From Arctopsyche grandis (taxonomy: Eukaryota > Arthropoda > Insecta > Trichoptera > Hydropsychidae), in NCBI RefSeq assembly GCF_051622035.1, contig NC_135360.1, positions 6,944,001 through 7,008,000 of the forward strand: a DNA stretch of 64,000 nt, in the 5' to 3' direction. Positions within the stretch are counted from its first letter, which is position 1. Each line of letters begins with the position of its first letter. Below the pieces are notes generated by a model that was given only the letters and a program-made list of their open reading frames with translations, was not told where the DNA came from and did no database searches. The position numbers and the translations under genes are program-made. This document shows, piece after piece, positions 32,931 to 55,700 of the stretch.

Positions 32931-33092
32931 GTAGGTGGAATTGGGGCCTTTGGTGCTGGTATGGCCCCACCACCTGACGAGGAGTACAGGCCTCCAGTAT
33001 TGGCACGGCTTCTTCACGCTTTGCCTCACGTCAACGTCACACTGCATCGAGTCAACTCTTCATTTGCACCCCATTCCGAGCTCTACCTTGAG
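32931..33092 (+). CDS. tty: tty coding exon 1 (start codon exon)
   Basis: The acceptor is TTAATCTTAG|GTAGG and the donor GAG|GTGAGT. The 30 nt before the ATG at 32961 are also open in frame (ten codons, Gly-rich), but the likely upstream exon would bring an in-frame UAG, so I take the ATG as the start. It encodes the extracellular N-terminus (44 residues), with Asn-Val-Thr and Asn-Ser-Ser glycosylation sequons. Confidence 0.88.
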
Positions 33093-36000
33093 GTGAGTAT
33101 CATTTTCATTTATCAAAAATACACTCACAACTACATATATTTCAAAGTATTAATGTGTTTTGTTATGATGTTTCAGAGCCTTGGCATCCTGGGTTCAGTG
33201 CCAGCAGCCTGGCTTATTCTTACTCTTCTTGTGTTGTTAATCTATCTACTGACAAGATGTTGCGACCGGAAGCCTCGTCCCTCCAAAAGCATATCGGCTC
33301 TGAAGGTGTGCAAACGATGCTGCTCCCGATGAGATTCGCATTAGTTTATAGAGTTCGTTGAATTGAGTGGTCGTTGTACTGTGTTAATTGTGCAATTTGT
33401 CATTTCAGGTCACTTTATGTATTGTGGCAGTTCTTTGTTGTGGTGCTATAGGTATGGGATTATATGGCAATGACGACTTGCACAATGCTTTGCTGCAGGC
33501 GCTTGATGCAGCTCGCTCCATCAACAACATCGTTGGAGCTATTAGAAATCAAGTATATATTTGTTCATTTAATACTAATGGATATCGCAGATGTCGAGTT
33601 AAAATTTTAATTGCTGGTAACCCTTTGAGTGCTGACGTTTTTTCTGTTGAAAGCCCGCCACGTTGAAAATTTCACCAAAATTTTCAATCAGAATTATTTA
33701 GAAATCCAATAAGAAAGCAGGTAAAAAAAATTGTAGCTAATCCAAACAAACCCTAGATAACTACCGCTGAGGATTTCGAATTTTATAAAGGTGTGTTTAG
33801 ACTCTAATATATCTTGCAACAATAGAAAATAAACAAAATAAGTCTATTAATGTATTTTTCCAAAACCAGTTCCATCTTTTGTATTGTTGTTAAAATTTAA
33901 TGCTCACAATCTAAAATACTAAGCAGTTAGGGATTTCCATTGGGAAATTCTGCTATGGTCTGAAATTCCGGTGTAAACCAGTCTTTATAAATGTTGAAAA
34001 ATGAATGACACGGATTACACGACCCATGATGTTCAATGTTACCTGAAAAGGCTTAGCGGGTAGTATTCTTGTTTACTTTGTACATGCTTAAAATACAACG
34101 CCTATAAGCGTTTTTCAGGCTCATGGACTTGTTGGCCGATAGGCGTTGGTCAGCATTAAAAGGTTAATAAGTTTAAAATACGTTTTTAACAATTTAAAAT
34201 GCGTTGACTTGTTGACTCGTCATTTCCACATACATACCTCGATCAATGGAGTCAAACTTGGATTTATTTTCTAGGCAGTTGTATTGTGTATGATGGTGCG
34301 ACACACTATAAATAAATAGTTTTTATGACAATGACATATTGTGAAATAAATGATTGAGATAGCATTGACAACACTGTTACATAGGTCTGCAGAGTCAATT
34401 TGCATGTAGCTTTGCTCTATTACAGTTGATTGTATCGTATAGTGTCAGTGTTCACATTGAAATGACTTCCTATAAGTTTTTACCGCATCAAAACTGGTTC
34501 CACGACGAAACGTTTACGGACAAAACGTCTAACGACATAACATCCACGACAAAATGATTACGCGAGATAATGTTCACGGACAAAATGAGTTCAGGACATA
34601 ATGTTCATACATTATTTGTACATAGCTTTGATGGTGTTATGACGAAACGTTAAAAGACAAAACGTCTAACGACACAAAGATCACGACAAAATGCTTACGC
34701 TGATTATATAATGTTCATTAATGATTCAAGTGATTACATAATGTTCATACCTTATGTGTATGAACATTATGTAATCATGTTGTGGACTTTGTGTCGTTAG
34801 ACGTTTTGTCGTGACACCATCAAAATTATATGTACATAGACATTTCTGAATCATCTTTGGAGTGTGCCTATCATGAGTCTTCTATGATCTTCCACGATTC
34901 TTTGAGTTTGAATTCCAGTTTAAATATTTTAATAATCACACCATTTTCTTTAGCACATTTTAAAATTCTCATAATTTTGCTTTCAGACAAATTCAATTGA
35001 ACTGGCTCTAACGCAAAAAGTCAAACCTCAATTGACTGACCTGTCAGATATTTTCGATTCTCCGGTCACGAATCAAACCGCTTTAGGTGTCCTGCTAAAC
35101 ACCTTATCGGCTGTAAGGAACAACACGACAATGGCAGTAAGTGCCGCAGCTGACATCAAACGTCCCTTGGCCGGCATCAACATGGACCAGTCATTAGAAG
35201 TACATTTCAGTCTCGCACTTTCCACACTGCAAAGTTTAATGACAAAGTAATTATTATCGAATTTATAATTTAGCGTTGCCGACGCTGGGAATGGATTCGT
35301 TGGATCGGCGCCATCGGAGCTTGGTCAGCTCTCGTAGTGGCTTGCGCCGTGCTGCTGATTGGAGTAGCTCGTCACTCCCGACGAGCTCTAATTGCTTTCA
35401 GCGTGTGTGCGCTAGCCGCTCTCGTAGCTTGCTGGTTAGCTGCCGGTGCTGCTCTGGCAGCTGCCGTAGCTCTGGCGGATGCGTGCCAAGATCCGGCCGC
35501 CGCTCTTGCCCAACGAGCACCACCCGATCTACCACAAGAGGTTACCTTTGGTTTTTATCTTTGATTGAAGACTATTTGATTAGAAACTGTGATTTACATA
35601 TATTGTGTCGGCTTTTTTAGGTTGTACGCTATTATTTGGTGTGCGAGGTGGCACGCGCTAATCCGTTCACCCAACGCTTACGAGAATCCCAACGTGCCGT
35701 GCTGGCCGTACGCCAAGGACTCACTTCGCTTGATCGCATCGCCTCGTCTATGTTCAATAATCCAAGTATGCAATTCGTTATACTTTCATTGATAACACGA
35801 AAAATGGTTCAGAGACGAGATATGATTTTTCTTATAGATCTATGCCCAGTGCACACGAATCTGGTAATAAAAAATGTTGATTGGCTCGAGATTCGAAGAT
35901 ATGTGTTTTTTTAAATCGCACGATTTTTCTATATGTTGGTGTGTTCAGTCGATGTCTCAAAATCTGTCAATTTCCTGTTCAAAATGAATATTTGAATCTA

Positions 36001-39000
36001 TAGTCGGGTATTTTATCTTTCATTTGTAGAACTTTTCAGCTTTCAAATCTCTCTAAGTAGTCGTCCAGTTCAAATCAAAAGTCAAAAGTACGTATTTTCA
36101 CTTGGGATTTTTTCCCACTGTTAATACTATTTTATATTGAGTATTTTCTATTGAAACATGTTTATTGGGATAGTATTCTGGCCACACTATTTTTTATTTT
36201 CGTTTAAAAGGGTTAATTGGAAGTGTGCTGAATTTTAAATCGGTAAAATTGCGAGCTAAAATCTCGTATTTACACGAATCTGAATTGAATTAATAGGGAT
36301 AATATATTAAATTGTCTTTATATTTTATTTTATTTTATTGTCACAAATCAATACACACTCGCCATTACAGATTTGCTCCAATGCGACGGGTATACGTTAA
36401 TGAAATACATAAACAATCAGAAATACAGTAATACATACATATACAATCAGAATATATAGAATATAACAATTAATCAGAAATAATAATCATAGTGACATCT
36501 ATGGATTTCAGATTACTGTGTATAATTAATACAAATTATACACAGGCAGATTTTTGTGACAACAGGATTAGATTTTTTAATACCAATTTTCAGGAACCGT
36601 TTCAGCAATGATCAGATAAAATTGGCAAACTCTGATAGAGAAACGATCGATTTGGAGTCACAAAACCCCCAAATCTAACCAGCAGTGGCGAGGACACGAA
36701 CCTATGACCTCAGTGATGCTAAATATATACTAAATATATATCACTAAGCCAAACTGCTGGCTATTATATGAGAATTAAATAAAATTCCACTTCGAAAAAT
36801 CATATTTGGTCTCTCCCATACTATAAACTTTCATTTAGCATTTATTTATTTATTTATACAATTTTAGCTAGCTAATTTTAATACATACTTAATTACTTAA
36901 CTCCAAAATTGTATATATACCTATATACTAAACTTATATGCACTGTCCTTCACAGAGGTGTCTCCTCGCACCTCGCAAGAATGCATCCATGGTCTTAGAA
37001 GACCTGACGCACTCAGGGAGGGCATTGTACATGAGCACACCCCTGTGAAAGACACCACCAGCTGTCTTCTTTATCCTTACTGTAACCTAGTAGTTGAAAT
37101 GAACATTAATATTTTTATTTATTTTTCATGAAGATTTACAACCGACTATAAAATCGCTGACGGCCGAAACGAACGCTGCGGAGCGCGTATTGAACAGTCT
37201 GACCGCTCTGGTCGACTGCCGAGCGGTGCGAGCTCACTACCTGGCTGGAGCACGAGCGCTCTGCGATGCCGGCCTTCTAGGACTTGCGTTACTACTGCTG
37301 GCGTCCGCCCTCGCCGGACTACTCTTCACCATCCTGGTGTGGGTGGACAGCCACACCTGGATATACATCAGGAAAAAGTCAGTCGCGTCAGTCCATTATT
37401 TGTGCGATGTTTCATATGTCATGCTAAAAATCGTCTCCGTCAATGTTTCAGGCGAGACTACGCCGGTGATGAGCACGCGCCGTTCTTGCCGCCGTCCTCT
37501 TCAAGCGGTGGTGGCACCCTTCTTGCGAGCGCTTCGGCTGGATCTCGCACCCTGCCTCGGAGCCAAGGGTCGTACTACCCTTCCGTTTCTCCACGCGCCT
37601 CCCCGCCGCTGCCTCCCTCCTATGGCTCCGCCGTTGCCATGACAACCATGCCCTCCGCCCCGCTGCATTCTTTACACAGGCATGATGCGAACCTCGCTTT
37701 TTATTAGTTTTATTTTTTTTTCAATTATAATTTTTTGCATTTTCTAATTTAAGTCTATTTAAGTTCAATACAAAGTACTTTAAGTCTATTTGAATTGCAG
37801 ATTTGGACTTCGGCAATAATACTCTAACTTGCAAACCTTGTATGCGGCACTCACTATTGGTTAAAAACCATATTTTTCTTTCAACCACTCGCCATAAGCG
37901 CATCAGTGCGCGCTCTTTCGTGTTTATGACTCGAAATTAATTTTGGTTCTTTCTAATGAAATTGAAAAAGTCAATATTTTTCCTTGGTTTCTTATGTATA
38001 TTCAAGAGGTATAGTTAGTGTCAAGGGTTGGCACTAAACACAAACATAAAATAATCGAATCGGTTTCTAAAAACGCGTGGCGATTAAGTGGTTAAAACTA
38101 TTCATGTAAAAATAATTCAAAAAAGTTTTCATTTAAAAATGTACAAGATTTACAAGTTAGTGTAACGATTTACATATCGATGTTTTTATATTGCCAAATT
38201 CTATTTGTACAAAATCGTTTTCGATTATTTGATTAAATTGCATGTTATTTTCAACTGATATTCTCAGTTTCTCATAACAAAATTACATGTTAAATTTGAT
38301 CAATAGACTTTAATTCATCGTGGTAAGTAAATTGTGTACAAACAAATAATTAAAATATTAATTGAAAAATTTCAATTTTAAAAACAGTTATTATGTTGAG
38401 AACTTGGTAAGTTCAATATTCAATATTTGAATTAAAAGATACATATTTTTTCCGATATTCTATTTTTTTGCAATTGCTTGCATATTTGGTATATTTTTTT
38501 CGTTTGGTGTTTTGTGAACTTAGCTTTCCGAAGAGTTTCAACTATCTACTTATTACATTATATTTACTTACTCTTACTAGATAACTGTATAAGTGTATAT
38601 CTATTGTATCAATATTTTGACCTCTTCCGTATTTGCATAAGGTATTTTTAGCAATACTGCTGTCTATATTGTGTTGGTACGAGGCTATCGCGATAGAATG
38701 CCAGTATGTATCCGATACTCGGCTTAATTATATACTAAAACACATGATACGTCGGATTCAACTGCTTCATCAATTACTATCGACCATCGGCTGGAAGTTT
38801 GAATCCGAATTACCATGTTTTCTAACTGGCCTGCTTTTGCTGACACTATCGTGATGGTCTCATTTAGTACAATTCGTTGTTCTATGCCTAATGAGTCAGA
38901 TTGTGAATGGTTATACATTCCATTTAATCGATCGATGAATCTAGCATGTTTTTGTGTTGTCTTTGGTTATAGAATTCCGCATTTAAACGATGAATACAAA

Positions 39001-42000
39001 TTGCGAAATATTGTATAAATGGATTTTTGTTTTATTTATTTTTTCTAATTGGGAATATGATTATTAGAGCATGTATGTTCGCATACTTATTTTTATACTA
39101 TAGTTTTTAAAAAGTAAAACTTCTCTTTTCCTACCAAAAATTTATGTTTATGTTTAAAATTTTTGATTGTTAATTGTTTTTTTTTCTCTACAAACATGGC
39201 AACACAATTTCATATCCAAAACAATCCCACTTCCTTTTAAGTTGTTTTTTTTTTGTTTTCGTCTGTATCAATATTATCATTGTCAATGCAAATAAAATTA
39301 TACTTTTATATTACATCGTGTAGGCTTTTATTTTACGGTATTATTGGAACGTATAGAATGTTTGGCCGCTGAAAGTTCTTATTGAATTTAAATTTAACAT
39401 ATAATACTATCAAAAACTTTATATGTATATATGTATGTACATTTATATATGATTGCAGAAATGAAAGTTATGGCCAAAAGTATGAAAATGTTTCTACATT
39501 AAAGGAACAGTAGATTTTACATCCAAAATGCATTTTTAAGAAATACATTTATTTGATTGTCTTCATAAGTAACTTAAATACAAACTTGTTAACCTAGTTA
39601 ACGGAATAACATCTAATAAAACTATCATAACACTTGCCTTGCTGTGCTAAAAAATCCCCGAGCCACTGTGCTGGACTCCTAGCGTCCAGTTAAAAATGTA
39701 TGTTTTAAGCAAAAATCTGCGAGGTTAGTTATTGTAATTAGTTATAAAAATCATTTTGTCGTGTATTAAACGTCGAATAATGTAAAATAAGCGCAAGAAA
39801 TGAAAAAAAAAGATCATTCCAAGGCGGATATCATTCTCACACTGACCGTTGAGCGCCGTGTACTGAAAATAATTATTTCTGTTAATATTGGATCAATGTT
39901 TTTATTTCGTAATGAAATAATTCGAATCATAGAGGTTTTGATGAGGAATACATAAAATATGAAGTGTATTTGAATAAAATATAAGTCCTGGTCTCTCGCT
40001 ACCCATTACAGTGCGGCAAGTGTTAAAACATAATAATGTTTGGATTTTTTAACTTGGCAGAAAATTATCATCGGCAAAAAGAGGAGATGCTTTTACAAAC
40101 GTGACTCATTGTCGTTTTTTGTTTTGCTTTGAACAAAAGTTTTTGTATTGTCATTACTCATTAACAGAGACCCTTATTTTTTAACATTTTGCTATAGATG
40201 ATGCGATTTTTGCATTATATTCTCATTCTATTATTTTTTGTTAGTTTTAAATTGTATGTATTTTATAAATTTTGTTTCAATGTATTGAAATGGAGTCTAC
40301 TCCGTTCGACCGATCCTCGTTTGACTGAAAAGGATTTTCAAAATTTCTCATCTGCTTGAACAGGAGTTTTTATATATGTATGTTACAGTCGAGGTATATT
40401 CCAACTGGCGTTTTAGGTCATTCATATTCAAAAAGCCACTAGTCTTTAACCACTTCATCGCCATAAGCGCACCGGTGCGCGCTCCTTCGTTTTTAAGCCT
40501 ATGACTCGAAATTAATTTTGGTTTCTTCACAGTGACATCTAAAAATATCCTGTGATACTAATGAAATTGAAAGGAGTCAATATTTTTCGTTAGTTTGTGA
40601 TATATTCAAGAGGTAGTGTCAAGGGTTGGCACAAAAAACGGGTCTACGTGACGAGCCAGAACGTTAAATTACAGAAAACGCAAAGATCGAAAATCGAAAG
40701 ATCAAAAAAAAAAGGGTGCATGGTAAACGGTACATACTCACTTAATTTGCGCGAGCAGGGTACAACAGGAACAAGAGGAACAGGCTTTTCCTCCCGTATT
40801 CTGCGCGCGCACATTAATACGGGAGGAAAAGCCTGTTCCTCTTGTTCCTGTTGTATCCTGCTCGCGCAAATTAAGTAAGTACCGTACCGTTTACCATGCA
40901 CCCTTTTTTTTTGATCTTTCGACTTAGGATCTTTCGATTTTCGATCTTTGCGTTTTCTGTAATTTAACATTCTGGCTCGTCACGTAGACCCGTTTTTTGT
41001 GCCAACCCTTGACACTACCTCTTGAATATATCACAAACTAACGAAAAATATTGACTCCTTACAATTTCATTAGTATCACAGGATATTTTTAGATGTCACT
41101 GTGAAGAAACCAAAATTAATTTCGAGTCATAGGCTTAAATACGAAGGAGCGCGCAACGGTGCGCTTATGGCGATGAAGTGGTTAAAGACTAGTGGCTTTA
41201 CCCGGCTTCGCTCGGTATTTATAATATAAACCGCTTAAACATGACTAATCCAATCGAATCTAACATTAATTTGTTTTTTTATTCCGGAACTGAAAAAATA
41301 ATCGGGAGCTGGAACTGTAAAAGGAATCCGGATCCGGAACTGAAAAAGGAATCCGGAACCGGGACTGAACAAATAATCGGGATCTGAAACTGAAACAGGA
41401 ATCGGGATCCGGAACTGAAACAGGAATCCGGATTCAGAACTGAAACAAGAATCCGGAACCGGAACTGAAAAAGTATTTACGTTTGTAGAGATATAATTTA
41501 CTAGTTGAATTTTATTCGAATATGAATGACCTAAAACGCCAGTTGGAATATATAAAAACTGAAAATATACCTTGACTGTAACTGTGACATACATATATAA
41601 AAACTCCTGTTCAAGCAGATGAGAAATTTTGAAAATACTTTTCAGATGAGGAATTTATAAATTCCGAGAGCTTCGGTCGAACGGGGCGCCCCGTTTGATG
41701 CTCAAACTGAATATTGAAAAGATACGGGTCTCTACACTCATTAGGATGTTGCAATGTGTATGTGGGTTGTATGTTCAAAGGCTTTTTGTATTGACAGTGA
41801 TGATATATGATGCACGTTGAACGGCCACGGAGCTTTCCGCTGCGGCTTTACACTGCGTATATTGACTGCATAAAGGTATTTGCAACGGAGTGTTTTTTTG
41901 TATGTTTACAGAAATGAGGCTAGCGGACAGTATGGTGTTGGAGGGGGGCGAGGGGGCGGTGGTGGGCCTGGAGGAGGTGGAGGCGGGCGTGGCAGTCATC

Positions 42001-42140
42001 TGCCTGGGGCGGGCGCCGGTGCCTGCCACACGCTCGGTCGTCTGCCCTCGCACGCCCCCACCATGCTCGGACCGAACAATGGCAAGTACGCGACTCTAAG
42101 CAAGCAATGCAAGACCTTGGAGAGTTCGGACTTTTACTGA
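32961..42140 (+). CDS. tty: Protein tweety (TTYH family), nine coding exons, up to the first stop
   Basis: Multi-pass membrane protein of the tweety/TTYH family, which is linked to chloride or organic-anion currents and volume regulation. Coding exons: 32961-33092, 33177-33305, 33409-33552, 34987-35199, 35274-35540, 35621-35765, 37134-37377, 37452-37679, 41912-42140. They join in frame into 576 codons plus UGA, close to the length of animal TTYH proteins. Recognised family motifs are LLHALPH near the N-terminus, SLGILGS and TRCCDRKPRP around the first membrane segment, GLYGNDDLHN after the second, GVARHSRRALIAFSV between the third and fourth, and ANPFTQRLRESQ in the second extracellular loop. 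Five hydrophobic segments lie in exons 2, 3, 5 (two) and 7. Introns are GT-AG except the last, which needs a GC donor. The ATG has G at -3 and +4. The weakest junction is the exon 4 donor (GAA|GTACAT), chosen because exon 5 must start in phase 0. Identity is near certain from motif order. Confidence 0.93.
33177..33305 (+). CDS. tty: tty coding exon 2 (membrane segment 1)
   Basis: 43 codons. TTTCAG|AGC acceptor and AAG|GTGTGC donor. It encodes SLGILGS, a Leu-rich membrane segment, then the basic TRCCDRKPRP turn typical of tweety proteins. Confidence 0.95.
33409..33552 (+). CDS. tty: tty coding exon 3 (membrane segment 2)
   Basis: 48 codons. CATTTCAG acceptor and CAA|GTATAT donor. It encodes the second membrane segment with CCGAIGMGLYG and the GNDDLHN motif that opens the first extracellular loop. 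The next intron (33553-34986) holds a piggyBac-like MITE and a foldback element. Confidence 0.95.
33621..34163. mobile_element. piggyBac-like MITE in tty intron 3
   Basis: It starts CCCTTTGAGTGCTGACG after GTAA and ends before TTAA (34164-34167). It is colinear with 15954-17192 but lacks the nested insertion. Confidence 0.8.
34498..34830. repeat. Foldback element in tty intron 3 (ACGACAAAAC words)
   Basis: Repeated words ACGACAAAA(C/T)G and GTCTAACGACA on the left, with complements GTCGTTAGACGTTTTGTCGTG on the right. ATAATGTTCATAC repeats around the turn. Confidence 0.8.
34987..35199 (+). CDS. tty: tty coding exon 4 (first extracellular loop)
   Basis: 71 codons, helical loop with NQT and NNT sequons and DIKRPLAGI. 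The acceptor GCTTTCAG is clear. The donor is placed at GAA|GTACAT because exon 5 starts in phase 0 just after an in-frame TAG. Reading on leads to VHFSLAL and a UAA at 35248, which does not resemble the family. A GTAAGT inside the exon (35136) is in good coding context and is not used as a donor in this model. Confidence 0.8.
35274..35540 (+). CDS. tty: tty coding exon 5 (membrane segments 3 and 4)
   Basis: 89 codons from ATTTAG|CGT to GAG|GTTACC. It encodes two hydrophobic segments joined by GVARHSRRALIAFSV, a tweety hallmark, then an Ala-rich stretch and a Cys/Asp loop (ADACQDP). It is markedly GC-rich against its introns. Confidence 0.93.
35621..35765 (+). CDS. tty: tty coding exon 6 (second extracellular loop)
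   Basis: 145 nt, ending in phase 1 (CCA A|GTATGC). It encodes YYLVCE and ANPFTQRLRESQ, which match the conserved YYxxC and NPFxQRL block of TTYH proteins. The next intron (35766-37133) holds an antisense SINE and a second retroelement fragment. Confidence 0.93.
36310..36775 (-). mobile_element. SINE, antisense, in tty intron 6
   Basis: The T-rich end (TTTTATTTTATTTTATTG) is the complement of the tail. Then come GCTCCAATGCGACGGG, the shared domain and an antisense type-one head ending CACTAAGCCAAACTGCTGG. Confidence 0.85.
36838..37090 (-). mobile_element. Retroelement 3' fragment in tty intron 6
   Basis: It begins with an ATTTATTTATTTAT run (antisense tail) followed by GC-richer sequence (CTCAGGGAGGGCATTGTAC). 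No ORF. Family not recognised. Confidence 0.4.
37134..37377 (+). CDS. tty: tty coding exon 7 (membrane segment 5)
   Basis: 244 nt with phase 1 entry and phase 2 exit (AGG AA|GTCAGT). It encodes TALVDCRAVRAHYLAGARALCDAG in two family-conserved blocks, the fifth membrane segment (LGLALLLLASALAGLLF) and HTWIYIRK at the cytoplasmic side. Confidence 0.92.
37452..37679 (+). CDS. tty: tty coding exon 8 (cytoplasmic tail), GC donor
   Basis: 228 nt from TTTCAG|GCGAGA. It encodes KRDYAGDEHAPFLPP, a Ser/Gly/Pro-rich tail and MTTMPSAPLHSLH. To join exon 9 in frame the exon must end CACAG|GCATGA, a GC donor. Unspliced, the frame runs ten residues further to TAG at 37705-37707 with no nearby AATAAA. A weak GT alternative in the right phase is AAGG|GTCGTA. 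Confidence 0.8.
37708..40300. other. tty intron 8, proximal part
   Basis: Mostly AT-rich. 37860-38095 is a diverged single arm of the 40301 palindrome family (CATAAGCGCATCAGTGCGCGCTC, TCAAGGGTTGGCAC). No gene. Confidence 0.5.
40301..41683. repeat. Near-perfect palindrome of about 1.4 kb in the last tty intron
   Basis: The left arm from CCGTTCGACCGAT (40302) pairs with the right arm ending TCGGTCGAACGG (41684); the turn is at 40800-40815 (GCGCGCGCAC). The inner part (about 40636-40991) is the foldback copy of 1372-1772. Outer segments pair at GCCATAAGCGCACCG, TGACATCTAAAAATATCC, AACTGGCGTTTTAGG and CTGTTCAAGCAGATGAG complements. The right arm has an extra insertion of about 290 nt (41200-41500). 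Confidence 0.9.
41286..41473. repeat. Tandem array with exact 25-nt period
   Basis: Seven and a half units of the form GGAACTGAAACAGGAATCCG plus five bases, each 25 nt apart. It lies inside the extra segment of the palindrome's right arm, behind an ACTAGTGGCTTTACCCGG end. Confidence 0.9.
41912..42140 (+). CDS. tty: tty coding exon 9 to the UGA stop
   Basis: The acceptor is TGTTTACAG|AAATGAG. It encodes a Gly-rich stretch, CHTLGRLPSHAPTMLGP, NGKYATLSKQCKTLE and SSDFY, then UGA followed by GGU. The conserved-looking peptide right up to the UGA says the stop itself is real. The same exon continues in frame into the 305-codon extension. Confidence 0.88.
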
Positions 42141-43058
42141 GGTCGCGCGGGCGGCGCCGGGCCGCAGCCCCTGGACCCTCGAGGTCTGGCGCCTCCCGAC
42201 CCGCGCGATATCACCCCCACCAATCAAATCAACCGCTTCGATCCCAAATACGCATCGTTCGGACCCAAACACCTCAAAACTTCCACTATTTCAGTCTGCC
42301 GACCCCAGCCGCTGAGCAGCATCGGTGAAACTCCGCCGCGGCTCGAGCCTGCACCGCTCTCCACATTCGCCCGACCCCCGCCTGACAAATACGCCACAAT
42401 ACGCACGGGCGGCAAGTACGACAAGAGTCACAAATACGCTCAACAAATGGAACAAGAAGAAACCGCTCCTCAACCGCCGCCACCACAGCATCAGCCGCAA
42501 CATCCGCAACAACAGATCGGAGGCACTTTGGACCGACGGGCCGGGACCGGAGGCCGACGCACCACTCCTAATCAAAGAGGCCCTCAGGAGAAGACCGGCA
42601 ACGGCACATCAATTGTACACCAACCGTTGCCGGATCCTCCGACACTCGCTCCGCAACCGTTGAGCGCTGCTCATTTCACCCAGTACCGATCTCCGGCACC
42701 GCCTACGCTACCGTGCTGCAACCAAGCCAACCCGCAGTCTCAGCATCGGTCTCAGAATCGATCCAGTCGCACGCCTGAAAAGTTCTTTTCAACCAGCAGC
42801 CAGTCGATCAGACCTCCCGGAGAACAGCAGAGGGGTACGTCTCGTCAGTCGCACTCGCACACGTTAGACCGCCGACACGGGTACTCCAACCAGAGTAGTC
42901 AGGGTGGGCAGAGTGCTCAACAGAACGCCCGCGCCGGCAGTCAGACCCTCGACAGACGCGGCCGGCAAGCGTTGAATCCTCGATCGACGTCGCTGGCACC
43001 GCTCGATAACCACCAGTCGGACGCTAATAGAGATCAATACGCCGTCACCGAATTGTAA
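42141..43058 (+). CDS. tty: In-frame 305-codon extension of tweety beyond its UGA (candidate readthrough)
   Basis: Directly after the UGA at 42138-42140 the same frame stays open for 305 codons to UAA at 43056-43058. It is GC-rich, unlike the AT-rich DNA on both sides. The predicted peptide is Pro/Gln/Ser/Arg-rich and cytoplasmic by topology. It has three TLDRR motifs (codons near 42527, 42863 and 42946) and several KYA motifs; KYATLSK occurs just before the stop and KYASFG, KYATIRT and KYAQQ after it, so the repeat pattern crosses the stop. It ends in AVTEL, which fits a class I PDZ ligand. Translation would give an 882-residue protein. The first Met (codon 42447) is far inside, so independent initiation explains it poorly. 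Alternatives are a splice that removes the stop, UGA-to-UGG editing, or 3' UTR with chance openness. Confidence 0.72.
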   Translation, partial: GRAGGAGPQPLDPRGLAPPDPRDITPTNQINRFDPKYASFGPKHLKTSTISVCRPQPLSSIGETPPRLEPAPLSTFARPPPDKYATIRTGGKYDKSHKYAQQMEQEETAPQPPPPQHQPQHPQQQIGGTLDRRAGTGGRRTTPNQRGPQEKTGNGTSIVHQPLPDPPTLAPQPLSAAHFTQYRSPAPPTLPCCNQANPQSQHRSQNRSSRTPEKFFSTSSQSIRPPGEQQRGTSRQSHSHTLDRRHGYSNQSSQGGQSAQQNARAGSQTLDRRGRQALNPRSTSLAPLDNHQSDANRDQYAVTEL

Positions 43059-46000
43059 TGATAACTTCAAAGTGGAGCACGCTGTTAAACCAACAGAGTG
43101 CTTCACTTACACCAAAAGCAATAAAAAATCAAAATGATCGACTTCCACCAACAGTACTATATAATCCGAGTAATTCGTAACAATGAATCTAATTAAGTGA
43201 ACCGAGTGGCAAAAAAAAATTAAAAAAAAAATGATACGTGTAGATTTTTTGGAATTAGATTATTACATATAAAATTCAATCGTTTTAGATTATTCTATTT
43301 TATAAACAACTAAACGACAAAAATCTTTTGTATACTAATCTTTTCATCCGACAACAATGAGGAAGAGTAAATTTGTCATCAATTATAATTGTATGTTTGT
43401 ATATGTCTAAACATACGCATGTATTTATTATATGTTAAGTATGATTCGTAAGAGATTTGTAAATATGAAACTAAAAACACCCAGCACTGAGTGATATATA
43501 TATTATATATATATGTATGTATGTATTTAAAAAATATACATTTTCCATTTGTATTCTGGAATACATATTTACTATAGTGATATTCCTATAAGACTATTCA
43601 ATTTTAATATTTTACATGTCTCGTACAGATAAATAGCATTTTTTATGAACAATCGAATAATAAATTAAATGAATTTAAATAAAATATTAAAAAAAAAAAA
43701 CAGTCATAGTGACAAATGGGAACAATTTTTTCACAATTCTTTTGTTTTTTGTTTCCTTTTTTTTAGAACGACATCGTCTCCCGTAAACTATCGCACTTTT
43801 TACAAGTTTTGTAATTTTAATACGTATATAAATTGCACAAAAAAACATTTATAAAGTTTACTTTATTGAAAGAAAAACGCCTATGATAACCTCAATTGTG
43901 TGAATTCGTATGTATTTTCTACTTTACTAATATAAATGCAGGTCTTATAAGAAAAATTTTGTACCCATCGTATTCCATTATTTTTTAACAATTCAAATAT
44001 AAAATAAATTAGAGTACTTGTATAATGAAAGTAATGAAAAAAAAAATCGGTCAATCACATAACAGTTTCTTTGACACACGGTATGTAAAGAAAAGCGTGT
44101 CTTTTGTTAGCGTTTTTTGGAATATTCGTAATCCATTACTATAAAGTAAAATATTATATTTATATATATATACATAGACATTTTAATGGTAGATTATTTG
44201 TCTGGAGGTTAAATTAAATAAATTTAAAGGAAAGTAATAAGAAATTAATCCGTTGTACGATCGATTTAAGCTCACAAACTTTCATTGTTATTCACCGCAT
44301 TTAACTGGTGTTCAAACGTAACGTCACATAATTAAAGGTTAGGTATTATAAATAAATAAAAGATGATAAAAAAAAAACCGTAGGTGTATAAAAAAGAAGA
44401 GGACGAAAACTTTATAAAACAACAATAATTTTGTAAAATTAAACTAATCAATTTTCTCTAGAAGATTTATTCGTATTTTGGGTGTTTGAAAAAAACCTGG
44501 AAATCTGTACATAGGCTGTTCGAATGTGAGCCGCCATTTTGAATCCATACAAATATCGCATGATTTTTACAAGCTTTTTAAGACTGATTTTATTAATATA
44601 ATAATCCGGCACTGTTAAGCGTTGCTGAACATTTTCGATTTTTTTTTGTTTAATGTATATTTAATGTATTATTTTGCAGCTTACATTCGAACACCCCTAG
44701 TGATAACTTTTAGCAATCAGCTCAAATTTTACTGCCACATTAGTCTAAATAAATAAAATTTTGTAAAATGAATTTTCGATTTTCATACGTGCTTATATTC
44801 CAATACTTTATATTGTTTTTTTTTAATTATTATATTACATTTTTATTTATTTTTCAATTAGAGGCCATAATAGGGTTAGTACAAATATTGAGTGAAAAAT
44901 AAAAATGTATATCTCGCAATCGGCACTACTGTGAAGGTCCGGTTGCGAGAGCGCAATGATATAAATATTAGTTATTATTATTATATTCATTAAATTTTAC
45001 TATTTATCATATAATGTGAAAAAATTACTGTAAATATAATTAAAAAAAAAAATTTTGTAATAATGTTGAATGTAGTACTGAATTATTTATATAGTGTAAC
45101 TAAAATATTAATTCACATATATGTTTTACTGTATATGTGAATGCGATTTTATATTAGGTGTCTCTTATATGAGGTTGTCAGCTGTACAAGTTCCTGTTTC
45201 ATTTTCGTTTCCGTAATGCAATATTACGCATTATTATATTATATTATATCGAGGGTTCCGCACGGCTCGTCATCACTTCTACGGCATGTTCACGCTATGC
45301 CAGAAACCCTACTAATAATGACGATATTGGTTACCATGATTAATAATTGCACAGATACTCGTGTGTAAATATTTCAAATATACCCCCTACCCCCCCTCAT
45401 TTATATATTATACATATATATATATATATTGAAATTAAATGCATATTATGTCGTGTAATTTTTGTATTCTGTGCACTATAATCGGTGTATAGAAAATGCT
45501 CAATAAGAATTATTCAAGTGTGAACGTCGTCTACTTGTAATGTTCACGCGTGTACTTGACAAAGTATGCTCGCGCACATTGCAATCTATATATATATTAC
45601 ATATATATAAAATATTAGTTACATTTTTAAATAATTGTTAACTTTTTTTGAAGTTTAATCAAATAAGCTTTATACATATACACACAATAATAATTCCGTA
45701 GCTTTCGCAAGGAACTTAAGTTTTTGTTTTATTATTATTTTTTTTTTGTGTATAAAATGAATTCATATATTGAAGTGCTTTTGTTTTAATTTGATATTCA
45801 AATTTGTAATACGACTAGTCATTATTTTCGTTGCAACAAAAATGAAATGTGGATAATATTATATGTTCGCGTGCACAAAACTTGCGGATATTTATATTTT
45901 GCGTTTTAAAAATAGCGGTTTGAGAATTATTACTACTTTAAATACTGTATGTATGTATTATTATTATACAATAAACGATCTGTTTCGTGAGTTTCGTTTT

Positions 46001-46589: not shown

Positions 46590-46718
46590 CTACAAAAAGG
46601 GACCCCATCCCATGTACATTTGGCATAGATTTACAACACTGATCGCCTCGAGGATGAGATGGTTAGTTTGACCCTCGGGCGAGAGAGACAAAGTGAACTG
46701 CTTATCCTTCGTACGAAC
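46590..46718 (-). CDS. ATR: ATR last exon, FATC domain
   Basis: 42 codons and TAG. It encodes SPEGQTNHLILEA and ends NLCQMYMGWGPFL, the FATC signature. The acceptor is TTGTTTCAG|GTTCG. Confidence 0.97.
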   Translation of the reverse strand, partial: VRTKDKQFTLSLSPEGQTNHLILEAISVVNLCQMYMGWGPFL

Positions 46719-49700
46719 CTGAAACAACCACTCAATACAATTATAAAGAAAAACGACAACGCTGTTCGGGTGTGTAGACGACCATCTACACATTCGAGTT
46801 TGGGCATGTGGAAACAGAACGGACCATTCCTTGGAGTCGGTGTTCGATATGCGTGAGGTGCTCTTTGGCTGATTGGTTCGTCCTCTCGGCAATGACGGTC
46901 GAACGATCGAGACACTTCTGCCACGTGACGAGGGGATCGTATACGAACGGGCGTATTATGGCCATCAGCGTCGGAGTCTGCGCTCTCAGCACGCGCATCG
47001 TCACCTCGCAACACTTCCTAAAACATCACACAATTAAAAAAATTCGGATGAGACCAACCCATGACTGTATCTATGTATTTGAGGAATATAACAAGGTCAC
47101 AAAACAAAATTTTATGATGAAACATACATACACATTCACACATACCGGTTACGAGAGCATTTTCGATGCAAATGTAGGGAAATTTACCGAAGATAAAAGT
47201 TCTACTTGCGGTTGTCAGATTTTGTTCGAAATTTTTTTATTACTTAACATCACTAATTATTTTATACGCATTTAAAAATGAAGAAAATAAAAATGGTTTA
47301 AAAGGTCGAAATAAAATAATGAAATATTGTTTAAAAAAAAAATACTACTTCCAGTTTACGAATTATGACCAAAACCTTATCAGCTTTAAGTTAGTACATA
47401 AAGGATACAAATATAAATTTTCAGCTTGATACGTTCAGGGGTGTGGAAAGAATCGTGGTCACAACATTTTTGACTTTTCTAAGAGGAAAAAATCCCATTT
47501 CCGGTTTATTTAATTTAGTGATTTTTTTTATTTTCATCACATTGATAAAAGAATAATACTTGAATGTTTTCGTGAAGAGCACACGTGTCGAAAGGGGTCG
47601 AAAAAAATAGTGTAAGAAAAATCGAACAAGAGTAAACTGCCACTTCCGGTTGACGGATGCTTACCAAATTTTATACATAACTTAGTATTAAGCTTAAACT
47701 TCTATATATGAAATATCAGTTCAATAAACCAAAAAAAATCTGAGAAAAACATAAAAAACCTCGATTCTATAGAGCAAAAGTACTACTTCCGGTTCAGATA
47801 AAAATATTCAAAATATATAAGGGCATAAAATTTATAATTTCTATTACATGTAAAAAAAATTCATTCTAATTCGGTAAACCGTTTGGGAGATAATTGAATT
47901 GAAAAACTTAAAAAAAAAGGTCACTTATAAGGAGAGGTACCATTTCCGGTCAACTTAAAAATTTACGTCATATCGATAAGAATTTCAGCAACCGATACTA
48001 AGTTTCAGTTCGATAGGATGAACGGTGTTCAAAAATATACAGCTACACAAACACACAGTTTTTCTAGATCATGAAAACGAACCAGTGATCGATTCTGAGT
48101 TCGAATCAGTCAAAATCTCAAGATCGAATTTTCGCATGATCACAAAACTTCATCTATTGTCACTAAGTAAAAATGTATAAAATTTGAAATCATACTAAAA
48201 ACCCACACGTACCTATACATGCCCTCGTGAGCGAGCGGACCCATGGCCGATTGCATATTGTGCGTGAGACGAAACGGGACCGTCTCCGGACGTAGAAACC
48301 CTTCGCCCTTGTTAAACAGGCAGTTGAAATCCACGTGCATGGTATCGCCGTTGGTCGAATCGTATAGTATGTTTTCACCGTGACGATCTCCTAAACCTAT
48401 GGTGTATATTTTTATTATTATGATCATATATTATGTATGTATGTATTATATTATAGAAAGTAGAATGGGTACCTAAAATGTATCCAACCATAGACATGAC
48501 GGCCGTGGTCCTCGTGTAGGCAGATCTTGCTTGATACCTGATTATTATTAATAGTGTTTTTGTATATGTCTGTTTGATTTTCGATATATTATTGTGTGTT
48601 TTATCAGTTTATTACCAACTGTGAGGATCCGGAAATGTGGATCGGAACCATTCGCCGAAGACTGGCGGGTGACGTGGTATTAGTTCCGTTTCGAATGTTT
48701 TCTTCTTCTTTGATATGGGATCATTCACATCACAGTCCCATGAACGTAATTGTTTAGTATTGATTGCTAAGCCTTTTTACAAAGAAAACATAAGTTTTAG
48801 CAACGTAATTTTTTTTTTTAATATTTCATTTTTGCTATAGTGCCCCGACAGGTTGTCAAATATTTTTATTTTATTTTATTTCATAGAACATGCCTTTACA
48901 GATCGCTCCAAAGCGACGAGTGCACTTAAACAGATACAATACAATCAATATACATAAGCATTTTATACAATGCGAATTCATACAAACATCCATAGTAGAG
49001 ACATTTTTGCAGCATTTTATAATCAAATTGGCGAACCTCAAGACGCTGAATAGCTTGAGATTAGCGAGAGAGATAGGAAAGGAGATGTCAATTTTAGAAA
49101 AATTGGCAAACTCTGATAAGAAACGATCAACCTGGAGTCACAAACCAAGGTCTGGCCAGCAGTGGGACTCGAACTCGTGACCACACTGCTCGAGAGCATA
49201 ATATGCTAACCATTAGTCCACGACGCTGGTTAAAATTAAAGTTATTAATTGAAATCATAATCAGGTGATAATAATGTTGCGTGGACGCAAAGAGGGGGCT
49301 TCCAGGATCAGAGAGAAAGACGCAAGAGGGTTGTAGAAGCGGTTTATTCGTCTGCTCCCGTCGGCGCTCCAGGTCGGAATTATTTCCAATTCGAGAGCGC
49401 CCCTTATTTATATGTATACACATTTGGGCTCAAACACCTATTGGTCGATGAGTCAGACGATCCCATTGGCCGTTGCATACGGCTCATTCATACGTAGAGG
49501 CCATTTTGGCGGGAACGAGAGATCAGGTGATTTGCGCTAGTAAACCATCGAAAAACCACGAGCGCCACTCACCTAATCTCTACGTTACAATAACATTTAG
49601 GTATGAGCCAATTTCTGAAGTACCGTTTCAATTGAAGTCTAGCTGGGGTTAGGATTTGAAACGCCTCGAAGAACTATAACCTAAATCATTATTTTCGTAC

Positions 49701-52700
49701 AGAAATTGTTTAAACTTTTGATTTAAACCTTTGTACGCCAGCGAGTCGCATCGATTTCTCTTTAGAAACGTACACTATGTAACGTTTAAGGGCGAAAACA
49801 CACTGTGTGTATCCTCGATGCTCGGATGCGCCCATATAACCGATAAGTACCTCATTTTTTTGCATGTGTAGGAATATAGCACAGCTTGTACTATCCCAAA
49901 TCGAGGTCAATGATCTCATCTACATATTTCTCCATAAAACACAAGTCGCACGATAGCATCATCGCGTTCCTGTTCGAGCATGCAGAGCTGAACTTGTCTG
50001 AAATATCTCTGTTCACACAGGGGCAAAGACACAATTCGACTCGGTCTACATTAACAACATTGAGCCTATAGGAACCCCCGAGAGCATCATCTCATCATAC
50101 AGCTACGCACTAAACAACCTCAAGCCCATAGGAATCTTCGAGAGTATGATCTCACCTATCAAGCTACACATTGAATAACTAACCAGGATATACATATACT
50201 ATCGCACTAGACGACAGTGTGAGCCTCTGGAGTTCAGCCAGCCCGATTCCGAATTAAAGCAACTACCTCCTCAATAAATAAACTTCTTCCAAACACAAAC
50301 GTGTTTCCAAAGGTTTCCTAGGACACTGGTCAACACACCTACCTGCTTAAACACGTTCAACTAATTTAAAAATTGCTAGCGTATAGACAAAGATCAAATA
50401 TTTCGCGATCTTAAATGTATTTATTGATTATAGTGCTTTTGGGTGCTGGAGATGGAAAGAACCAATGCCTCTGAACTCAATGAGCTGAGATTTGGCGATA
50501 GCACATCATCCACCTGTCTTAGGCGTATCCTCCAGTTCTTTGGGCACATCGCGAGGCAAGACCAGGACAGCCTGGAAAAACAGATAGTTCTGGGAAGCGT
50601 TGACATAAGTAGAGGAAGAGGAAGATCCCCAAGATGGAGCGACCAGTTGAGTTGCAAGCTGCCGAGTGTCGAGAGAACTGGAGGACCATGACCGTGGAAG
50701 TCAGAGGACGGGAAAGTCACCACTCTCAGGCATAAGGAAAGCGACGACAAAGAAGAAGAATGCTTTTATATACAAGACTAGGATATACCTTTATATAGCA
50801 AGACTAGGATATACCTTTATATAGCAAGACTAGGATATACCTTTATAAAGCAAGACTAGGATATACCTTTTCGTTTGTAAATCGACGACAGTATGGGTCT
50901 AAGCCCCACCAAATTTGGAACCCATTCAATGAGTCCACACTCTTCATTCAATGGCAACACTGTATAAGTTCTAATATACAATCTACGCTCCCTAGCATCG
51001 GGATGGTCTTGGAGATAACGATTGACTACAGCGTTGAATTCCATCAGACGGAAATCTTTACGCAGATCATCTTTTGGCTTCAACATTATAATATAACGAT
51101 TACCATCAGAACCTAAAGTAAAATACATACATATATAAACGATTTAATACAAACAAAGACATATTCAAATATTTACAATATCAATATTGACCTAAAAATG
51201 TAACTTTTCTCGGTTTTTGTAAGGACTGCAATACAACAACCTTTTCTTCAATTCCTGCTATGTAAACAGGCGGTGTAAACGGATTGAAATTTCGATCCTA
51301 AAACACACTTTCTTATTATACATGCATATATATGTATATAATAAACACCAAATTTACAGAATCGTACATTTCTAGCTGCAGTAACGGGAAGTGAAAGTTT
51401 GACGAAACGTTCGTGCGGCATAACTATTTCGCTAAAATCAGAAGTAGTCAAAATCCTAGGCAAATTTCTGACGAGGCTGCTGACGGTGAACGTCTGGAAA
51501 AGATCAATCTTTGTAATTAAAAATATGACTAAAGTACCATAAGAACAGATAGATAGTAATTACTTGAAGATCTTTATTGACAGGTGAATTGCAAAGGTCG
51601 ATCAAATTCGTCGCCAACAAGTTAAAGTGGCTGATGAACTTTTGCATTTCTGGATCTTTCAATCGATGGTCATTCAATATGTCTTGGCAACGTTTCATTC
51701 TCTGCGAATATCCAGACTTGATCACACACATCATCATCCACAAGGAGTGTTGCGGATAGGCCAAAATCAATTTTATAATCACCGACTTCAGTTGATTGTA
51801 AACCTAGGATACGTTTGAATGACTCTACTGTACTGTATTTCGATAGTAAGCGAATTAAATTGAACTATTTTTTTTAATATAAACCTGGTTGATGGGATGG
51901 CAAATTCTCGATATGATCTGCGAAAACGCAGACAGGAATAAATACAGAGGCAAGCGTTCAGTAAAGGTTTCGATCAATGTGCATATGTTCGTCAATGCTG
52001 CAAGTGCAGTCGATTTGTTTTCAGAAGTGATTTCAGTTTCATAAGTGAAGTCCAACCTGTAATTTATATATGTACACTACAATTAGTATTGATTGTTTTG
52101 TCTTTCCATTACTTATTATGATAATTATATTATCCAGCACCGCATGTCAACAATTCGCAACAACAATGCACGGAAAATACTCCATTCATACTACATATAC
52201 AGCATCGTCCATCTTCAGCACAGTGCAAAGCAAAATCGGCTTATATAGATACGACGAAATATTGCTTGTGTTGTATCGTCGAGTCAATATTGTCATAAAT
52301 ATTCATATGCGCATGCGCACTTTCGTTAGTACGGGTGCACTCGCCATTATGACGTCACGCCATGCGTGATTTTTTTTGAACATTTCCACAGTAGGTAAAG
52401 AAAAACTGTTCTGCTTGATACGTTTTGGTGACATGTTCTGCTGTATAATATTAATAGATCGTATTGGTTGCTGCTCTTTTAGATACGCCACGTACACATT
52501 ACGGATTATATTAATGTGTCCATATCATCACCATCTACAGCCACTCACCATCAACTGCTGGATGAAGGCCTCTTCCACTCGTCTGTGTTTTGCGCAATAG
52601 TCATCCATCTCACCCCACACATTTTCCTAATTTCGTCTACCCATTTCCCTGCAGTCTTCTTTTTACCTTTTTGCATTCTCTCGGGTACCATTCTAGCACT

Positions 52701-55700
52701 TCTTTTGTCCAACTTTCGTCCATTCTTCTAGCCACGTGACCAGCCTATTGACATTTCAATCTATTTACTCTATCCACTATGTCCACTACCCTTATCATAC
52801 TTCTCATCCAAGTACTCCGCTTCCTATATTTCCTTGTTATGCGGAGCATACAGCGTTCAGTACATTGAACTTTGTGTAGCATCTTGGCGTTCAATATCCA
52901 AGTTTCACATCCATACGTCATCACTGGCAAAACGCATTAATTGAAGATCTTTTTCTTCAGGCAGTGGCATTTTTGATTTAAAAACTACATTCATTCGTCC
53001 AAATGCACTCCATCCTAATTTCATACGTATCTTTATTTCTTCTTCTTTACTACTGGACATGTCTATTATGTGTCCATATATAATGTACTAAAGAATACTT
53101 TTAGTACTGTTGTTTACATGCAGTTCCCGGCTTGAGCTTTACTGTTATAAACGAACCTTCACACATAACTTTTCAAACAAATTATTAAAAAGAGGATCAG
53201 ACAAAGACCGATCAAGCTCAAATATGAACCATTGAACATATGCAGTAATGAAAAAATAATCCAACTCTAACTTTTATATGTATTATCAAAAATTATAAGC
53301 TTTTCTTCATGTTGAAGTTGGAGTTGTTGCAGTATTACTTATATGGGTTGGATTCTTTTTGCAGAACTACGCCTGTAAATGAGTGAAATTACCAAATGGA
53401 AAGCATACGAGGCATGCTCTGATACAACTTTTTATGTCCGTATTGTAAAGATCGGCCGTAATAGTCAAGAGCCTGAGTCCGTGCGGCAAAACCGGAGCCT
53501 CCGAGTTTTTCGCTGGGAGTCAAAGCAGAATAGATTTTTTCGTAGTATTCACCCAAACAAATCTGGAAATGAATATAAAAGATTATTAATTATACAAACA
53601 CACACATATATAATATAATATATGTATATTAGACTAACCAAACTCTTTTCCCATTCTCTATACGTCAACATGGCATCTTTATAATGCTTGATATTCACAT
53701 CCATATCGACATTTGTAGTCTCATCGTTGTATATAGCTATTAGTAATTTAGCTTTAGCGCACAATTTTCTGAAATAATTAGAAGTTATTCACACGTATAA
53801 ATGATTGGTTTATTTATTTAGCTTACTTATCATCTTCGGCGAGATTTTTCGTATCCATAAAATGTTCCTCTAATCCGCGTTTTAGCGTGCAAAAGGCAGG
53901 CTCTTGTTGATTACGCATCCAATACAATTTTGCCTTTTCAATGAATAGTTCTTTCGGACTGTATTTTTCACTATTTAATATGTAAATATATGCCTAGAAA
54001 CGTTTAATCACATTACTTTCATAACAATTTTTTTATACTATTATATTATACATGTAATTGAAATAAAAACCTGTTGAAAGACTCCAGCTTTTCTAGCAAA
54101 CTTTGCACTCTGTAACCACAGCTTTCCGATGTGTATGTCAAGCAACGGAATAATTCTCGGGTGTGTATTTTGAAGAAGTTCCTGTAATTATAATCATAAT
54201 TGGCATTAAATTAAAATTAAAATATTGTAACGTGAGAACACGAGAGATAATATCCGCTGTCTACGGGATCCCCGAATTGGCCTAACGGGACTCAGTAAGT
54301 GGCCACACTAGAATTCTCAGAATCCGAGAGCGTGAGACTCACTTAAAACTACGTGCCTAGACAATAGATACATAACCAGATCGGGGAAGCTGTGGTGAGC
54401 TACTTGTCCTTTATAAGGAGGTACTTATCATACCATATCAGATTGACCTCCTGTATCATTCAATAAATGCTGTGAAGCGACTTTGGCCTTTCATTGGGAT
54501 CCTGAACTCACCCCTACGCAACAATATAATATAAAATCAAACCTTTGATTGTTCCAAAAGAATCCTCCGCAATCTCAAAACAGGTTCGACGATGTTTTTA
54601 GACGATTGCAATAAATTAAACCTCAAATTCCAATCATTAATCAAATTATTTACAGTCAGAACGCAATCGGTATCACCGTCGTGAAGATCTTTGATCCTAA
54701 AATTCAATAAAGTATCATACATATAAAATATACGCACTCGCTATTTTAATGTCGGACATACTTAAATATAATATCTTCGATGTCCTCAATTTCAGATATC
54801 ATATGCAGATCAAATGCAGACGTGTATGCTCGATCGTAAACATTTTCCTCTAAAGACATGTAACTAGCACCACTGTCTAATCTACGCAAGAGGGCTTTCC
54901 GAGCCGAACTCAACTTCTCTTGGAGAGTCTCTCGTACTCCGCTGCGTAGAGCCAAGAGACAGTGCCCAATATTTACTCCCCATGTGTCATTATTTACAAC
55001 CTGTAATCAAACATTCAATTAACCAACATAAATATCTAAAAAAATATATATTTGTTTATACAAAAACTAACATCAGGACGGGAGAGCATTTTGTCTAGGT
55101 CTTCAAACATTCCCAATCTCCAAAAAGATTCAGCAGCTAATCCATAACTGTTGAACTCAACATCGGCATCTTGCAAAAGCTTCAAAGCAGTAAAAGGCTG
55201 ATCTAATCCGAGATATACTTTGACCATACCCTATAACATTTTTATAAAGTATTAAAACTACATTAATACACATTTATAATTTATAACAGGAAGGCCTAAC
55301 AGGTAAGCCCAATGCACCTTCCAGGCCAGAAACATTGTACATTTGATACAAATATTATTAGTATTATAAAAAGTACATATCAATTAATATCCACAGAGAC
55401 ATCTATGGTCAAATTTGTAAATTTGCAGCATTTTATACAATTCAGCGAAATTCGAGATTGGTGAAAACTCGAGATTTTGCGATAAAATCGGTAAGGTTGC
55501 CAATTTGTTGGAACCGTTTCAATGAAAATCAGATAAATTGGCAAACTTTGATAGAAAACGATCGACCTGGAGTCACAAATCCAGCAGAAACCAGTGGGAT
55601 TTGAACTCGTGACGACTCTGTTCAAACCATTGTATGCTAACCACTAATCTATTCTGCTAGTTATATACATAAATTTAACTTTTTTTATCTACCTGTAATT

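Follow-up and report, generated by a model that had tools for sequence, protein, structure and literature searches.

The window analysed here is a 64,000-nucleotide stretch of DNA from the caddisfly Arctopsyche grandis (contig NC_135360.1). It contains a tweety gene of nine exons, and the product of the model is identical to the NCBI A. grandis protein P0003 (576 aa). This gene and all features described below are located on the + strand. Exons 1-8 (32961..37679) lie at 32961-33092, 33177-33305, 33409-33552, 34987-35199, 35274-35540, 35621-35765, 37134-37377 and 37452-37679, and encode the Tweety domain PF04906 and the beginning of the C-terminal tail. PF04906 was found in two exon ORFs (E 1.3e-20 and 2.4e-21) as well as in P0003, and the gene belongs to the Tweety family. 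The splice model includes a GC donor at 37680. The last exon (41912..42137) encodes the canonical C-terminus ending GPNNGKYATLSKQCKTLESSDFY; the annotated protein ends with ..ESSDFY and terminates at the UGA at 42138-42140. The 18 residues of the canonical end recur, little substituted, in 85/86 tweety matches listed (514-639 aa among these matches), and an end of the type D[FY]Y, not TEL, is present in 85/86 of the listed proteins.

The open frame behind the stop codon

The UGA (42138..42140), proposed as the readthrough codon, stands in the context UAC-UGA-GGU (42135-42143) and is followed by 305 open in-frame codons (42141..43055), the proposed readthrough extension, and by a second stop, TAA (43056..43058). 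The sequence thus agrees with the first-pass annotation, which had pointed out this arrangement. In a motif scan the first AATAAA past the canonical stop was located at 43120..43125, and A[AT]TAAA is absent between the two stops, so that, judged by motif, both frames lie on the mRNAs that include the canonical stop. The tail is GC-rich, as had been noted (GC 0.61), compared with 0.37-0.43 in 500-base windows starting at 41000-41500, immediately upstream, and 0.22-0.30 in those starting at 43000-44500, immediately downstream. The KYA motifs described on either side of the stop are also present: KYATLSKQ before it; PKYAS, DKYATI and HKYAQ after it. In first-order Markov simulations of the same composition the frame stayed open in 123 of 20,000 runs, with a mean of 5.1 stops. 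The earlier caution that GC-rich sequence lessens the surprise was therefore justified; the length of the open frame is by itself moderately surprising and weak evidence.

The encoded tail is rich in Pro, Gln, Ser, Arg and Thr and looks disordered. No Pfam domain was found in the window tail at E up to 1, or in the tails of seven relatives at E up to 0.01. Several short motifs (KYA, TLDRR, QPLP, QYRS) recur along it, and each of the named blocks was found in 40-70 of 74 sequences. Block A (DPRDITPTNQINRFDPKYASFGPK, 42198..42269) is represented by NRFDPK[YF] in 62/74. Block B (KYATIRTGGKY, 42387..42419; KCATLRHGGRY in P0005) fits [KN][CY]AT[LI][RK] in 70/74, a pattern that the KYATLS of the canonical side fails. 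Block C/D (TSIVHQPLPDPP...TQYRS, 42606..42692) matches QPLP[DE][IP]P in 58/74 and [NQ]YRS in 40/74. The tail ends with YAVTEL (43038..43055). A TEL end is found in 38/74 sequences, all of which fit Y[SA][VAMI]TEL; the other 36/74 end otherwise. Class I PDZ ligands are defined by a C-terminal [ST]-x-hydrophobic, the form to which T-E-L conforms, and the end of the tail may act as such a ligand.

Homologues of the tail in other insects

The tail profile search returned at least 73 proteins, three of which are the query rows (129-800 aa among the matches listed); since the searches were length-limited and only listed matches were covered, a long joined isoform may have been missed. Caddisfly-like proteins and a lepidopteran-like ORF are among the homologues, and so are proteins of named Diptera, one of them SD02285p (P0121) of D. 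melanogaster. Two close relatives, P0001 and P0002, show 93% and 74% identity and have the C-terminus in common with the window. P0157 shares AGPQPLDxRxLAPP-DPRD with the window. P0157 (tail) and P0004 (canonical) each come from a contig of 2627 bases, a match that is only suggestive, since equal lengths also occur by chance: P0010 and P0129 have 2308 in common but are incompatible with each other.

In four relatives (P0005, P0103, P0120 and P0132) one frame leads from KYATLSKQCKTLES[NS]DFY into the tail, reading W at the position of the stop, an agreement that partly reflects selection, as these four were picked up because they are open. The W may stand for a UGA translated under genetic code 4 or for a genuine UGG, and the UGA codon itself was seen in the window alone. 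The residues right after the stop are ESPAC, ESPAC, DPLAC and ESSAC, respectively, and RFDPK follows the stop after 38, 53, 45 and 52 codons (31 in the window). The partial models P0093 and P0091 begin with ESPAC and PAC. P0132 differs in 2/43 pre-stop residues from Contarinia P0069, which terminates at the stop. For Aedes, Ceratitis, Lutzomyia, Topomyia and Musca vetustissima the annotations list the tails as proteins of their own or as partial ones. No beetle, bee or orthopteroid protein was found among the named tail matches listed, though the canonical ends of these insects are alike.

At the protein level, homologues, blocks and C-terminus show that the in-frame ORF following the stop is under protein-coding constraint. 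It is conservation, not length, that raises the frame above chance. The comparison with related insects proposed by the first-pass annotation, carried out on proteins, was thus favourable to its candidate, with the tail conserved and the canonical end retained in 85/86.

Proposed readthrough and alternative explanations

We consider with good confidence that the best explanation is an ancient programmed UGA readthrough exchanging the C-terminus of tweety. The candidate put forward at first pass gains support from a tail that is conserved in caddisfly-like, lepidopteran-like and dipteran proteins. The majority of ribosomes would terminate at the UGA and produce the membrane protein of 576 aa that ends in ..SDFY; in a minority a near-cognate tRNA would decode the UGA and translation would go on for 305 codons, which would give an isoform of 882 residues. 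The tail ending in YAVTEL could then alter the choice of scaffold or trafficking partners of the protein. Actual reading of the UGA by ribosomes, its frequency and where it takes place are inferred. The +4 base is G rather than the favoured C and was counted against readthrough; the first reading was right that UGA-G is not the leakiest context. E or D codons point to a +4 G in five relatives as well, P0093 being one of them only if the first residue of its partial model directly follows the stop.

A compound RNA hairpin, predicted at 42138..42213 with a basal stem including TCGCGCGGG/CCCGCGCGA, is a candidate stimulator and may assist readthrough. The 100-nt fold starting at the UGA has a z of -2.63 (1/200 shuffles equally stable). 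In a scan of 53 distinct 100-nt windows the hairpin at the stop had the lowest z; its z in 100 nt ranges from -2.6 to -3.1. At 60 nt the fold is unremarkable (z -0.52), as is a 100-nt window spanning the stop (z 0.02), and a separate stretch of the tail at 42578 reaches z -2.87. Selenocysteine at the UGA was considered and rejected: an Rfam search of the window at gathering score returned no SECIS and no other family.

An exitron-like splicing event would also give both ends. In this case a short intron with KYATLSKQCKTLESSDFY and the UGA is removed in some mRNAs, joining GPNN-G in frame to the tail, and the intron-retaining form has the canonical end. A frame-keeping option of 60 nt exists, with a GC donor (ATG|GCAAGT) at 42082 and an acceptor TTTTACTGAG ending at 42141, and the gene uses another GC donor, at 37680. 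The G after the UGA, in the window and as deduced for the five relatives, is what this acceptor needs, and the annotated model of Pseudolycoriella P0104 has a splice that crosses the stop, after GPNNG. According to the main text of PMC8273234, D. melanogaster Tty, a paralogue, carries 520 additional hydrophilic residues at its C-terminus (205 in CG3638), and the Tty extension might be the tail joined by splicing. However, the window would have to combine a GC donor with a GAG acceptor, both poor. The better-looking acceptor at 42294 would remove the conserved block A, the frame-keeping GT donors are weak (42086 CAA|GTACGC, 42124 AGA|GTTCGG), and the acceptors in frame with exon 8, searched over the first 119 codons, fall at codons 59, 60 and 96, beyond block A. 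A joined isoform is absent among the matches listed for this species (514-639 aa), and in Aedes, Ceratitis and other species the annotation keeps the tail separate from tweety. Splicing out of the UGA appears unattractive in the window, and this explanation is considered unlikely.

The separate annotation in Aedes, Ceratitis and other flies rather favours a protein of its own, made by internal initiation, by re-initiation or from a separate gene as NCBI annotates in several of them, and some relatives (P0157, P0121) have an early AUG in the tail. In the window the sole in-frame ATG is codon 103; blocks A and B precede it, so that re-initiation at AUG cannot make them. Near-cognate codons (CTG at 11, 16 and 58; ACG at 89) leave room for non-AUG starts, but conservation starts a few codons after the stop and in the frame of the channel itself, and a separate protein is very improbable. 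Even less credit is given to A-to-I editing of UGA to UGG (Trp), with the long form made from edited mRNA. It would account for the W at the stop in 4/4 of the through-reading relatives, but gene callers also write W for UGA under genetic code 4; P0120, with its JGI source and intron-like start, is probably DNA, and ADAR disfavours a 5' G neighbour such as the one present here. An open frame arising by chance in a GC-rich 3' UTR, or a UGA created by assembly error, has the least to recommend it and is dismissed almost entirely: openness of 0.6% is not negligible in a 64-kb scan, but many insects have a homologous tail protein and tweety ends at the same position in 85/86 matches listed.

Beyond programmed readthrough as such, a wider reading is held tentatively, with its parts taken jointly, and is somewhat closer to doubtful than to probable. 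It assumes a translational isoform switch on tweety that Diptera and Amphiesmenoptera have retained from their common ancestor, in which termination would leave KYATLSKQCKTLES[SN]DFY and readthrough would bury that end and expose a disordered tail with a class I PDZ ligand (YxVTEL), directing the protein to different scaffolds in certain tissues, with the non-leaky UGA-G context itself conserved. If readthrough is true, stopping versus reading on would exchange one conserved C-terminus for another, and the tail pieces that annotations of several flies list as uncharacterised or kinase-like would be explained.

Relation to known systems

Stop-codon readthrough is known as a kind; the tweety case was found in no main text searched. 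Conserved readthrough in Drosophila and Anopheles, with UGA enriched among the ancient cases, is described in the main text of PMC5100048. The window is like these cases in its UGA stop and conserved in-frame second ORF, and differs in its +4 G rather than C and in its caddisfly host. The published comparative work consulted used Drosophila and Anopheles alignments; the tweety candidate extends to a caddisfly and a lepidopteran-like species, and its tail is long, has recognisable motifs and belongs to a family of membrane proteins. The first-pass annotation had stated that insects are known for stop-codon readthrough, which holds, and that such a length is rare, which is amended: in the main text of PMC4999894 Drosophila extensions sometimes reach several hundred residues, so the length of the window tail is not unprecedented. 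As described there, the long fly extensions share with the window tail a disorder-type composition, richness in motifs and lack of a Pfam domain, and some validated extensions contain PDZ sites. In dfr/vvl (PMC13170385, main text) a stem-loop lies 3' of the stop; a stable hairpin just downstream of the stop is common to both, but that of dfr spans +10 to +58 behind a UAG, whereas that of the window is predicted only and begins at or beside the UGA.

The main texts of PMC5100048 and PMC4999894 do not contain CG3638, and that of the former does not contain tweety either. The passages on CG3638 searched in PMC8273234 and PMC11175612 mention neither readthrough nor a stop codon. The literature search found no report of readthrough for tweety or CG3638 in the texts covered, and an earlier supplementary listing of CG3638 is possible. 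CG3638, a tweety paralogue named Motor in PMC11175612 (main text), resembles the window gene in its canonical end LESNDFY (P0070) and in the tail homologue SD02285p, which is probably located at CG3638. The main text of PMC8273234 describes the function of the C-terminus in the tweety family as unknown. In the work reported in the main text of PMC11175612, the embryonic movement phenotype of a Drosophila miR-2b-1 mutant was rescued when CG3638 was lowered.

The annotated end of tweety and the open frame behind it

The nine-exon model upstream of the UGA at 42138-42140 is identical, letter for letter, to the 576-aa NCBI 'tweety' protein of the caddisfly Arctopsyche grandis, which terminates at this UGA. 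Pfam Tweety was matched by two of the exon ORFs. The last intron before the UGA follows a GC donor (CAG/GCATGA) at the end of exon 8. Left unspliced, exon 8 has a frame that ends HRHDANLAFY-TAG soon after this donor (37674-37707), a possible alternative short end. A 25/75-bp tandem repeat (41283-41473) is located within the last intron.

The first-pass annotation had reported a long open frame behind the UGA, and the window sequence confirms it: 305 in-frame sense codons (42141-43055, here the tail) followed by UAA (43056-43058). The tail contains no in-frame stops; the other forward frames contain 4 and 8, and the reverse strand 5, 15 and 10. The frame stays open in 123 of 20,000 composition-matched Markov sequences, and its openness is only moderately surprising as a product of chance. 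Homology argues strongly that the tail exceeds chance.

Homologues and conserved motifs of the tail

The tail alone, used as query at E up to 0.001, matched two proteins, P0001 (93%) and P0002 (74%), both of which start at the window's Met103 and end in YAVTEL. With the joined protein as query and residues 425-882 as the scored region, at least 86 proteins were matched. Among the matches listed, 85 of 86 carry the D[FY]Y end in the window's 18-residue motif; judging by their names, these presumably span Orthoptera to Diptera. The remaining match, P0005, reads ..KYATLSKQCKTLESNDFY-W-ESPAC..NRFDPKYISIGPK..DLYSVTEL, with the canonical end followed by W in place of the stop and by a stretch homologous to the window's tail.

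A four-row profile (E up to 0.01) matched at least 73 proteins, three of them query rows; 60 of 73 among the matches listed were without a name. The named matches include SD02285p of D. melanogaster. Separate or partial proteins, uncharacterised or named as kinases, were found in Lutzomyia, Topomyia, Aedes aegypti, Ceratitis capitata and Musca vetustissima, and 'tweety' proteins in Pseudolycoriella, Anopheles maculatus and Sergentomyia, plus two JGI records. The kinase names are 'probable serine/threonine-protein kinase yakA' (P0115, Ceratitis) and 'alpha-protein kinase 1-like' (P0124, Musca vetustissima); no Pfam domain was found in P0115 at E up to 0.01. The canonical-end ORF P0004 has lepidopteran proteins as its best eight matches besides itself (64-67%), followed by the window's protein (57%), among the best 10 listed.

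Motifs were counted in the window and the 73 profile matches, 74 sequences among the matches listed. [KN][CY]AT[LI][RK] is present in 70 of these, NRFDPK[YF] in 62, LPPK in 61 (absent from the window itself), QPLP[DE][IP]P in 58 and [NQ]YRS in 40. The TEL end is present in 38 (YSVTEL 17, YSATEL 13, YAVTEL 5, YSMTEL 2, YSITEL 1); many of the other 36 look like ORFs that run into an intron or a contig end.

Probable passage through the stop

Readthrough of the UGA probably adds the tail to a fraction of tweety proteins. In four homologues (P0005, P0103, P0120, P0132) the frame continues across the stop position, which is occupied by W. Gene callers write W for UGA under code 4, and the W may represent either a UGA read in this way or a true UGG. 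Since their open frame is what led to the detection of these proteins, their in-frame passage counts as supportive, not independent. Over the 43 residues that precede the stop, P0132 shows two differences from the Contarinia protein P0069, which ends there. Coding constraint appears to begin directly behind the stop. The residues that follow it are ESPAC, ESPAC, DPLAC and ESSAC in the four proteins, respectively, partial models start with ESPAC in Topomyia and PAC in Lutzomyia, and AGPQPLD.R.LAPP-DPRD is common to the window and P0157, a lepidopteran-like tail ORF. The distance from stop to RFDPK is 38, 53, 45 and 52 codons in the four proteins and 31 in the window. The sole in-frame ATG of the window's tail is codon 103, behind the NRFDPK region (42198-42269) and KYATIRTGGKY (42387-42419), so AUG re-initiation cannot produce these two blocks. 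No A[AT]TAAA was found between the two stops; its first instance is at 43120, after the second.

The stop context in the window is UGA-G and not the favoured UGA-C, as had been remarked from the sequence. TGA-C is described as the leakiest of three contexts tested in yeast (PMC3609751), and a 3' C as commoner among ancient readthrough cases (PMC5100048). The codon after the stop encodes G, E or D in 6 of 6 sequences seen (window, P0005, P0093, P0103, P0120 and P0132, taking the partial model P0093 to start directly after the stop). This makes G the probable +4 base throughout, although UGA-C is leakier.

The 100 nt from the UGA have a fold z of -2.63 (1 of 200 shuffles equally stable) and the 150 nt one of -2.83 (2 of 200); a 60-nt stretch following the stop (z -0.52) and a window across it (z 0.02) are unremarkable. 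When 53 distinct 100-nt windows were compared, the minimum z belonged to that which begins at the UGA (-3.08; repeat -2.84); the next lowest, -2.87, was at 42578. Readthrough of Drosophila dfr is described as stimulated by a stem-loop whose stability outweighs its sequence (PMC13170385). The predicted hairpin at the UGA is a plausible but unproven candidate for a readthrough element.

Splicing could instead join the tail to tweety. Between 42060 and the stop, two GT donors, both weak, could remove the UGA in frame, and the four acceptors up to 42320 that match them in frame either look poor or lose the NRFDPK region (42294, 42316, 42319). Within the first 119 tail codons, the sites at which a splice from exon 8 could keep the frame are limited to codons 59, 60 and 96. 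The rival taken most seriously, though we consider it improbable, is a 60-nt in-frame intron from a GC donor at 42082 to an AG ending at 42141, which would remove exactly KYATLSKQCKTLESSDFY and the stop. A GC donor is already in use elsewhere in the gene, and a G follows the UGA in the window and probably in five relatives; yet this intron needs a GAG acceptor together with its GC donor. Splicing is also favoured by the model P0104 (tweety-2 of Pseudolycoriella hygida, 800 aa), which skips from GPNNG past the conserved end and the stop into the tail, either as a real exitron or because the predictor avoided the stop. Among the D. melanogaster paralogues, 205 extra C-terminal residues are reported for CG3638 and 520 for Tty (PMC8273234); the long end of Tty may be related to this tail and may be joined by splicing. 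Against splicing, tails are annotated as separate proteins in several flies, and no joined isoform is among the matches listed, where search length limits could hide long isoforms.

Both Drosophila and Anopheles are known for conserved readthrough, which is believed to be abundant across Pancrustacea (PMC5100048). Readthrough of tweety or CG3638 was not found mentioned in the main texts of the literature searched. The probable tweety case shows an unusual depth of conservation and has a long tail.

Tail properties and other features of the window

No Pfam domain was found in the window's tail (E up to 1) or in seven relatives (E up to 0.01). By simple composition, 85% of its residues are of disorder type, and it lacks W. 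The C-terminus, T-E-L, has the form of a class I PDZ ligand and is a candidate for such a ligand. PDZ sites are reported in validated readthrough extensions (PMC4999894). Because the canonical end is itself conserved, reading on would swap one conserved C-terminus for another.

Downstream of tweety, on the minus strand, ORFs with a FATC domain (46590-46955) and a UME domain (58881-60065) were found, which we take to belong to one ATR-type kinase gene (46590-63069, minus strand). A 62-nt inverted repeat (58111-58172 / 58399-58460; 89% complementary, 226 nt apart) is perhaps a small mobile element.
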